Below, in pieces: positions 12,343 to 50,497 of a DNA stretch of 64,000 nt; the stretch's first letter is position 1; each line of letters opens with the position of its first letter. This DNA is from Ignisphaera aggregans DSM 17230 (lineage in GTDB: Archaea; Thermoproteota; Thermoprotei_A; Sulfolobales; Ignisphaeraceae). Under the pieces are notes generated by a model that saw only the letters and a list, made by a program, of their open reading frames with translations, made no database searches and was not told where the DNA came from. Location of the stretch: positions 372,001-436,000 of the forward strand of contig CP002098.1 of NCBI GenBank assembly GCA_000145985.1, read 5' to 3'. The translations under genes were made by a program, and so were the position numbers.

Positions 12343-12399
12343 ATTCTGATGAAGATTTGCATCCTAACTGAACTGTGATGTATACGAACCCCTCTGATA
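12343..12399 (+). ncRNA. box C/D guide sRNA
   Basis: The order and spacing are those of an archaeal C/D guide RNA: C box CTGATGA (12346-12352), 15-nt spacer, D' CTGA (12368-12371), 3-nt gap, C' GTGATGT (12375-12381), 12-nt spacer, D CTGA (12394-12397). A TATA element lies about 26 nt upstream and a T-rich tract follows (12404-12425). By the rule that the residue paired with the fifth base upstream of D or D' is methylated, the predicted targets are G in AGGGGUUCGUAU (D guide) and G in UUAGGAUGCAAAU (D' guide). The target RNAs are not identified. It would direct fibrillarin-dependent 2'-O-methylation of rRNA or tRNA. Confidence 0.75.
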
Positions 12400-12445
12400 C
12401 ATAGATTTTTATTTATCTATCTTTAGATTTAAAATAGGTGGTTTT

Positions 12446-29742: not shown

Positions 29743-29797
29743 ATATTGATGACTTGAGTTATGCCCACTGAGAGATGATGAGTATCGGGGTATAGGA
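29743..29797 (+). ncRNA. possible box C/D sRNA with degenerate D box
   Basis: In the 241-nt gap between the thiolase and antiporter genes, TTGATGA (29746-29752), then CTGA (29768-29771), a 3-nt gap and ATGATGA (29775-29781) reproduce the C-D'-C' order and spacing. The expected D box 12 nt on reads AGGA, not CTGA. A TATA-like GTTTTTTAG (29717-29725) lies about 26 nt before the C box. The missing D box keeps confidence low. Confidence 0.28.
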
Positions 29798-29862
29798 TAT
29801 TGTTTAGAGTTACATAAATTGCTAGATAAATGGTATAGAAATATTTTAGTGATTTGTAATAT

Positions 29863-48048: not shown

Positions 48049-49080
48049 TTATAGATCTATGGATATAGATTCGAGATACCTAAGTTTTTTCACAAGATTT
48101 GGTGGTGGATATAGTGCTAATGCTAATGCTCCTATTAGAACTATATCATCTCCAAGTGGTGTTACATCTATTCTTGGACGAGCTGTTACAACACCTTTTG
48201 AATTCTCAATACCTCTTACTATGGGCTCTACAACAAGTTCTGGATTTCTTAGAGCAACAGATCCTCCAACTGTTATAATCTCTGGATCATAGGAATTTAT
48301 AACATTTTCAAATCCAGCTATATTATATTTATTAACTTCATTGATAATCCTTAGAGCTAGGCTATCACCTTTCTTAGCATATGTATAGATAAGTTCTGAT
48401 GTAAGTTCTCTATTGAGGTATGCTCTATATACTGGTGATTCTCTTTCATTTTGTGTTAAGTTCCACTCATCTATGAGTCTATATGCAAACCTCGGTATAT
48501 TTGCACCACTTGCATATGCTTCCCAATGACCCTTTCCTCCACACCCACATTCCATTTTTCCACTAGTATCTACAACTATATGTCCTATCTCATGAGCATT
48601 TCCCATCTTTCCTAGGAGTAGTGTATCATCAACAATAATACCACCTCCTATACCAGTACTTATAGTTATATAAACAATATTGCTATACCCTCTACCAAGA
48701 CCAAAATATTTTTCACCCCATACAGCAGTAACACAGTCGTTAGCCATTACTACAGGCTTTTTAAATTCCTCTAAAATAGGTTTAGCTACTTCAAATGTAC
48801 GTATAGCTACATTTGGAGAGTTTATGACCATACCTTGAGTTAGATCAAGAGGACCTATAGTTCCAATACCAATAGCCTTAACATTATCTAAATAGTTTGA
48901 GAATTCCCTTCTTATACTACTGATTATAGTATTTGCAATTGTATATCTATCACCCTCCCTAGGAGTTCTAAAAACATGTCTACTAGCTATAGATCCATCT
49001 ACTCTAGCCAAAGCTATACGTGTCCATGTAGCACCTATATCTATTCCTATAACATATTGATTACCCAAAAACATCACCAT
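48049..49080 (-). CDS. ROK-family glucokinase/hexokinase
   Basis: The N-terminal phosphate motif DIGATWTRIA (14-23), the catalytic base D115 (ANDC) and the ROK zinc motif E164-x2-H167 with CGCGGKGH (178-185) are present. The last zinc-motif Cys of the family is His185 here. Archaeal ROK kinases phosphorylate glucose with ATP, and in crenarchaea many hexoses. It lies beside the ApgM gene, in keeping with glycolysis, and downstream of the C/D sRNA at 49116. Confidence 0.9.
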   Translation of the reverse strand: MVMFLGNQYVIGIDIGATWTRIALARVDGSIASRHVFRTPREGDRYTIANTIISSIRREFSNYLDNVKAIGIGTIGPLDLTQGMVINSPNVAIRTFEVAKPILEEFKKPVVMANDCVTAVWGEKYFGLGRGYSNIVYITISTGIGGGIIVDDTLLLGKMGNAHEIGHIVVDTSGKMECGCGGKGHWEAYASGANIPRFAYRLIDEWNLTQNERESPVYRAYLNRELTSELIYTYAKKGDSLALRIINEVNKYNIAGFENVINSYDPEIITVGGSVALRNPELVVEPIVRGIENSKGVVTARPRIDVTPLGDDIVLIGALALALYPPPNLVKKLRYLESISIDL

Positions 49081-49115: not shown

Positions 49116-49172
49116 GTATCAGAAAGCTTACCGATCATCACATATCAGTTAGGAGGTGCACACATCACTCCT
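49116..49172 (-). ncRNA. box C/D guide sRNA
   Basis: On the minus strand the order is C box GTGATGT (49168-49162), 13-nt spacer, D' CTGA (49148-49145), 3-nt gap, C' GTGATGA (49141-49135), 12-nt spacer, D CTGA (49122-49119), exactly the archaeal architecture. A TATA-like GTATATAAGT lies at 49211-49202, about 30 nt upstream. Predicted targets are C in AAAGCUUACCGA (D guide) and G in UUAGGAGGUGCAC (D' guide) by the fifth-base rule. The target RNAs are not identified. It sits between apgM and the ROK kinase gene. Confidence 0.75.
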
Positions 49173-49201: not shown

Positions 49202-49211
49202 CTTATATACT
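49202..49211 (-). promoter_or_regulatory. TATA element of the minus-strand sRNA
   Basis: GTATATAAGT on the minus strand is centred near 49206, right after the apgM stop codon. Initiation about 26 nt further would fall near 49179, a few bases before the C box. Confidence 0.45.
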
Positions 49212-49213
49212 GA

Positions 49214-50497
49214 TTACCATCTAGATAAAAAATCGAAAACTCTTCTTAAAACCATAAAGCCATGTGGTACTATTCCTAGAGAGCCTTTTGAGCAACATTC
49301 AGCTTCATTAAAACCTGTAAATCCATCGGTCTTTGTAAACCTCTTAGATGCAACTATTATGGGTACAGGATCAGCACTATGAGCTTTCATCTCAGGTGGT
49401 GTTGAGTGATCTGCTGTTACTATAACTATATTTTTCTCAAGATCTATAGACTCTATTAATCTCTGTATATAGTATCTATCTATAGCTTCTATAGAAGCTA
49501 TCTTCCTCTCCTTATCACCATCATGCCCAGGTTCATCAGGACCTTTAAGATGTACATATACAACATCAACTCTATTCAATAGCTCTAATGTCTTCTCTAG
49601 TCTTTCTTCATAATCTCTCTTTAGATCTCCTGTAGGTGGTGATACTGTTGCTATTTCCATGCCTAGGAGAGCTCCTATACCTCTCTCAACAGGCATTTCA
49701 GCAACTATACCAAATCTCTTCCCATATAGACTCTCTATAGGTTTTATAGATGGATACCTATCTTCGGCATCTCTAAGAAGAATAGCATTTCCCTTTGGAA
49801 GACCCTTTCTCTGTCTCTCTATATTTATCCTATGGTTATCTAGAATCTCTATAACCTTTCGGGTAAAGATGTTTACAAGTTCACATGTTATTCTAGCTTC
49901 TTCAGAATCATCAAGAGGTTTACATGGAGCTATATATGGCTCATAGGTCTTTAGAGCTATAGACAACCTACCCTCTCTAGCATATGCAGGATCTGTATTT
50001 GATACATTTGCACTAAGCCTTTTCTCCCTACTGCCAATAACAACAACAGCTCTATGACCAATAGATGCATACACCCTTGCATAACCACCATATATACCTA
50101 GATCTATATACTCAATATCTTTTGCAAGCATATGTGCCTCTTCAGATGTTAAGCTTCTACCAACCCTTCTATCAATTATCTTCAGATCTCTTGGATCAAC
50201 AGTAGCAAAGTTTCCTCTAAATACAACCTCACTTCCTTCAACAATTCTTATACCTAGTCCTAGAGCCTCAAGCAACCCTCTACCAATACTTATCTCTCTA
50301 GGGTCGTAGCCAAGTATTGAGAATACTGCAGCATCGCTTTCAGGTGCTGTCTGGCTATCTATAGGATAGAAGCATCCACCTATAGATATTCTAGCTAACT
50401 CGTCAAGACCTGGTTTATTTGCTAGCTCTAGTGATGTAGGTCTATATCTAAGTCCATCAGATACCCCATCTATAACAACCATAATAGTTTTACCCAT
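49214..50497 (-). CDS. apgM: archaeal 2,3-bisphosphoglycerate-independent phosphoglycerate mutase
   Basis: This enzyme of the alkaline phosphatase superfamily interconverts 3- and 2-phosphoglycerate in glycolysis and gluconeogenesis. D10 (VVIDGVSD) and the phosphoserine S54 (APESDAA) are the first metal and nucleophile residues; KGPDEPGHDG and TADHSTPPEMKAHS supply the remaining metal ligands. Length 427 aa and order are those of ApgM. It has its own promoter gap, divergent from the AbrB-PhoU gene. Confidence 0.95.
   Translation of the reverse strand: MGKTIMVVIDGVSDGLRYRPTSLELANKPGLDELARISIGGCFYPIDSQTAPESDAAVFSILGYDPREISIGRGLLEALGLGIRIVEGSEVVFRGNFATVDPRDLKIIDRRVGRSLTSEEAHMLAKDIEYIDLGIYGGYARVYASIGHRAVVVIGSREKRLSANVSNTDPAYAREGRLSIALKTYEPYIAPCKPLDDSEEARITCELVNIFTRKVIEILDNHRINIERQRKGLPKGNAILLRDAEDRYPSIKPIESLYGKRFGIVAEMPVERGIGALLGMEIATVSPPTGDLKRDYEERLEKTLELLNRVDVVYVHLKGPDEPGHDGDKERKIASIEAIDRYYIQRLIESIDLEKNIVIVTADHSTPPEMKAHSADPVPIIVASKRFTKTDGFTGFNEAECCSKGSLGIVPHGFMVLRRVFDFLSRW

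Follow-up and report, generated by a model that had tools for sequence, protein, structure and literature searches.

The box C/D sRNA sets described for Sulfolobus, Pyrobaculum and Ignicoccus combine a common box consensus (RUGAUGA for C and C', CUGA for D and D') with guides of about 12 nt and a D'-C' spacer of 3-4 nt; they include dual guides to neighbouring 16S sites and adjoin ORF stop codons (PMC4644070, PMC7994747). The position to be methylated is set by the N+5 rule (PMC4644070). A TATA-like motif is present on about 20% of archaeal C/D genes, many genes overlap or abut ORF ends, and published hyperthermophile sets reach 128 C/D sRNAs (PMC7994747). Ignisphaera aggregans AQ1.S1 is a hyperthermophile with a genome of 1,875,953 bp (PMC3035270), and the literature searched yielded no description of a box C/D sRNA for its genus. 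We compared a locus from a 64,000-nucleotide stretch of DNA of the hot-spring archaeon I. aggregans (the window) to these systems, with which it shares the box consensus, the guide and spacer lengths, the neighbouring 16S sites and, in relatives, the position next to a stop codon. The locus very probably specifies an archaeal dual-guide box C/D sRNA that would direct 16S methylation at G1048 and C980. Both numbers were counted by alignment to the E. coli sequence and are provisional.

Architecture and conservation of the sRNA

Read on the minus strand, the locus contains a complete box C/D sRNA in the order C-D'-C'-D, with the sequence GTGATGT-GTGCACCTCCTAA-CTGA-TAT-GTGATGA-TCGGTAAGCTTT-CTGA (Table 1). 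The boxes are spaced 13, 3 and 12 nt apart, just as the first-pass annotation had described them, in agreement with archaeal guides of about 10-13 nt and a short D'-C' spacer, which measures 3-4 nt across the homologues. The one departure from the consensus is the seventh base of box C, a T (U in the RNA) in place of A; this T is common to all 12 sequences of our alignment A1, and in two further homologues (G008 and G009) the box is the canonical TGATGA. The mature sRNA probably extends a few nucleotides past the core at both ends, to about 49172-49116.

Table 1. Coordinates of the sRNA, its neighbours and related motifs in the window
Feature	Position	Strand	Basis
apgM, 2,3-bisphosphoglycerate-independent phosphoglycerate mutase, upstream neighbour	49214..50497	-	TIGR00306 above cut-off
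Candidate archaeal TATA box TATATAAG, 33 nt before box C	49202..49209	-	sequence; promoter function putative
Core of the box C/D sRNA, from C through D	49119..49168	-	sequence; 14 other family homologues
Box C, GTGATGT	49162..49168	-	sequence
D' guide, 13 nt	49149..49161	-	sequence, 16S pairing
Box D', CTGA	49145..49148	-	invariant in alignment
Box C', GTGATGA, 3 nt past D' (spacer TAT)	49135..49141	-	sequence, alignment
D guide, 12 nt	49123..49134	-	sequence, 16S pairing
Box D, CTGA	49119..49122	-	invariant in alignment
ROK-family glucokinase-like gene, downstream neighbour	48049..49080	-	GK_Pyrobac and ROK_glcA, below curated cut-offs
Sibling C/D sRNA with AGATTTGCATCCTAA as D' guide and its D guide close to TATACGAACCCCT	12343-12400	+	all boxes present
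Third C-D'-C' motif, TGATGACTTGAGTTATGCCCACTGAGAGATGATGA, between two minus-strand ORFs	29745-29800	+	motif match

No Rfam family matched the sRNA at its gathering threshold. The nearest sub-threshold models that span it are archaeal C/D families (snoPyro_CD, sR5, sR3 and others), the best being RF00095 snoPyro_CD, with 26 bits against a gathering score of 45 and an E value of 0.001. This model of Pyrococcus C/D sRNAs aligns over the whole length with all boxes in register, but its guides differ, and the two are thus not the same sRNA. The models sR5, sR3, sR1, sR12 and sR7 likewise share the full-length C/D architecture and differ in their guides, all scoring far below their gathering values. 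Judged by its sequence, the sRNA belongs to the archaeal box C/D class, a well-known kind of gene, as a member unlisted so far.

We searched 41 genomes, our own and 40 relatives. BLAST located the sRNA in nine genus genomes (I. aggregans included) and in three other family genomes, and a sequence model built from these homologues added the two genus copies in G008 and G009, which BLAST had missed, and a diverged copy in the family genome G013. The total is thereby 15 genomes: all 11 of the genus that were searched, and 4 of the 7 others from the family, one of these with a divergent copy. All four boxes are conserved in the 11 genus genomes at the same site, between apgM and the ROK kinase gene and on the strand of both, so the check for conserved boxes in related species that had been proposed at the outset came out positive. 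In two family genomes (G015 and G016) the boxes are kept, while neither apgM nor the ROK gene was found within 1.5 kb on each side. The homologues align with nearly invariant boxes and guide cores and with diverged flanks: in the nine syntenic loci found by BLAST, mean pairwise identity is 0.92 from box C to D' versus 0.39 and 0.30 in the anchored flanks, which argues that selection acts on the RNA element. A pattern for the D' guide occurs in 12 of 18 family genomes and in 2 of 196 other genomes of the order, and C/D boxes are absent at both of the latter matches. Within the order searched, the guide pair appears to be confined to the family, which sets it apart from the Sulfolobus, Pyrobaculum and Ignicoccus sets. 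Directly upstream of the homologue in G011 (locus L007) and G013 (L098) we observed a second C/D-like unit ending in GGTCGGAGTTCTGA, which suggests tandem sRNA genes.

Other C/D-like loci are present in the genome. Scanning for TGATG-N10-16-CTGA-N2-10-TGATG (C-D'-C') returned three matches in the window versus 0.11 expected from dinucleotide shuffles (0 of 100 shuffles gave three), and genome-wide a tighter motif gave 25 matches at ~23 separate places versus one with a reversed-pattern control. For the sibling sRNA at 12343, the homologue search advised by the first-pass annotation produced no BLAST match in the other ten genomes of the genus (threshold E <= 0.01), and the rRNA stretches of two relatives showed no clear target for this sRNA; its D' region weakly matches a locus in G019 (L108). 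The third motif lacks a clear D box after it and may thus be a degenerate C/D sRNA. A further box C/D sRNA-like locus, TGATGAAAGCTAGATTATCTGATTGAATGATGAACGGTTTCTGGTCTGA, lies elsewhere in the I. aggregans genome (L106; G000:C1:1776654-1776700).

Predicted targets in 16S rRNA

Targets were analyzed on the 16S rRNA of sister species, with 23S covered where it lies inside the fetched rRNA stretches. The D' guide matches sister-species 16S at AGGAGGUGCA, its positions N3-N13 pairing with AGGAGGUGCAU (N13 by G-U) and its core meeting AGGAGGTGCA within CTGAGAGGAGGTGCATGG in the 16S of four genus members. Here, 2'-O-methylation is predicted at G1048 (E. coli numbering). Of 16 16S loci retrieved from throughout the order, 14 carry the target string GGAGGTGCA and the remaining two are partial, so I. 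aggregans 16S almost surely has it as well. The D guide matches UCUUACCG in relatives' 16S, about 60 nt upstream of the D' target; its core CGGTAAG pairs with CUUACCG and meets CTTACCG within GGAATCTTACCGGGG in the same four genus members, for a predicted 2'-O-methylation at C980 (E. coli numbering). Both guides place a Watson-Crick pair at N+5 on sister-species 16S. Conservation follows the pairing: N3-N12 of the D' guide and N4-N11 of the D guide are conserved, these being the positions that pair with 16S, and N13 and N1 of the former and N12 and N1-N3 of the latter vary among relatives. Position N2 of the D' guide is conserved though unpaired.

The first-pass reading of the locus as a box C/D guide sRNA is thus supported by conserved boxes and by two neighbouring 16S targets, whereas several of its details have to be revised. 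The rRNA search that it called for, carried out on relatives, did return two targets, but AAAGCUUACCGA is absent from the D site, which reads GAAUCUUACCGG, and UUAGGAGGUGCAC has no exact match, relatives' 16S having AGAGGAGGUGCAU. The D' target had been expected to begin with UUAGG; sister 16S reads AGAGGAGGTGCAT, with N1 and N2 unpaired. With these two bases, the closest to D', left out of the 16S duplex, it is probably by coincidence that the sRNA at 12343 has the same CCTAA. A reading of UUAGG as a tRNA anticodon-loop target was dropped on the same grounds and because N1 varies. None of the tRNAs in the I. aggregans genome contains an exact TAGGAGGTGCA or AAGCTTACCG, and longer guide matches near tRNA loci fall outside the tRNAs (30 of 43 tRNA loci fetched).

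Among 200,000 shuffled pairs of the conserved cores, none gave a joint rRNA match with both partners inside 100 nt. When full-length guides were scored more loosely, 6 of 400 shuffles did as well in the joint test and 201 of 400 did so for the D guide alone, the latter not being significant. The case for the D target is thus carried by conservation and proximity rather than by length. A literature search by site name (Gm1048, Cm980) returned nothing on archaeal rRNA, the published supplementary site lists lying outside this comparison.

Genomic context and transcription

The sRNA lies in the spacer between apgM and the ROK gene, both encoded on its own strand, and so is beside apgM and antisense to no gene, as had been noted earlier. 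The TATA element claimed upstream is present as the TATA-like TATATAAG, recognized by sequence and without an equivalent spacer in the relatives; a second TATA-like element, TTTAAA, is located at 49191-49186 on the minus strand. From its position, TATATAAG could set a transcription start about 12 nt before box C. In ten sister species box C begins 0-21 nt past the apgM stop codon, and there the sRNA is probably made within the apgM transcript for that reason. In I. aggregans this distance is 45 nt, the spacer being ~34 nt longer than in a typical sister species, and together with the TATA-like element it may provide the sRNA with a promoter of its own. Between these species the same sRNA gene would thus shift from abutting an ORF stop to lying behind a longer spacer that may supply its promoter.

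Proposed mechanism and alternatives

We propose that the sRNA is expressed in I. aggregans, where L7Ae would bind its C/D and C'/D' kink-turns and Nop5 and fibrillarin would join. Pairing of the D' guide with its 16S site would lead to methylation of G1048, and pairing of the D guide around CUUACCG to methylation of C980 by the N+5 rule. Because the two sites are about 60 nt apart in the 3' major (head) domain, one sRNP could hold both during ribosome assembly. It is extremely improbable that there is no RNA gene here and that the boxes arose in the spacer by chance or belong to a regulatory TAGGAG/CTCCTA hairpin of the downstream gene. Single-strand folding does find this hairpin, but shuffled sequences fold equally well (z -0.22) and relatives lack its upstream arm, while the boxes are conserved in 15 genomes, including the two in which apgM and the ROK gene were not found nearby. 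Methylation could also be secondary to a role in which the sRNA mainly chaperones the folding of the 16S head, a function proposed for dual-guide sRNAs (PMC4644070). The spacing of the two guide sites would suit such a role, and AGGAGGUG, the 16S sequence at the D' target, has a second complement in the 3' tail of 16S, CACCUCCU, the D' guide core being identical to this anti-Shine-Dalgarno tail. We nevertheless consider a mainly chaperoning sRNA unlikely, as each guide conforms to the N+5 geometry and forms a Watson-Crick pair with the base to be methylated. As a separate observation on the 16S rRNAs of the order (L061 at about 2501 being one example), the head-domain sequence AGGAGGTG is a perfect complement of the rRNA's own anti-Shine-Dalgarno tail CACCTCCT, which the D' guide core equals.

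A real box C/D sRNA of which only the D' guide works in I. aggregans, the D guide having decayed to a weak or orphan one, is a less probable but tangible possibility. Position N4 of the D guide is C in I. aggregans, versus A in the 11 other A1 sequences, where it pairs with 16S U979. If I. aggregans 16S reads like that of its relatives, this pair is lost, which would shorten the duplex to 7-8 bp and put the methylation site at its end. Against this, the I. aggregans bases CTTT at N4-N1, adjacent to the methylation site, would all be paired on a 16S with the sequence GAAGCUUACCGG / GAAGCUUACC, and a 16S with AAGCUUACCGGGGGCGACAGCAG does exist in one Bathyarchaeota MAG, so that a compensatory U979G change is possible. 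The D guide thus predicts a G at position 979 of its own 16S: either the I. aggregans 16S changed there by compensatory evolution or the D guide has been weakened. At E. coli positions 977-986, AAGCUUACCG would fit a co-evolved, working D guide and AAUCUUACCG a weakened one. A bolder combination, in which the sRNA shields the 16S head segment from mispairing with the 3' tail during assembly and the I. aggregans D guide has co-evolved with a change of U979 to G, seems to us very unlikely.

For the preferred dual-guide reading, what is new is a family-wide guide RNA with two 16S sites assigned to it by prediction. It would provide two exact predicted methylation positions and a candidate case of guide-target co-evolution.
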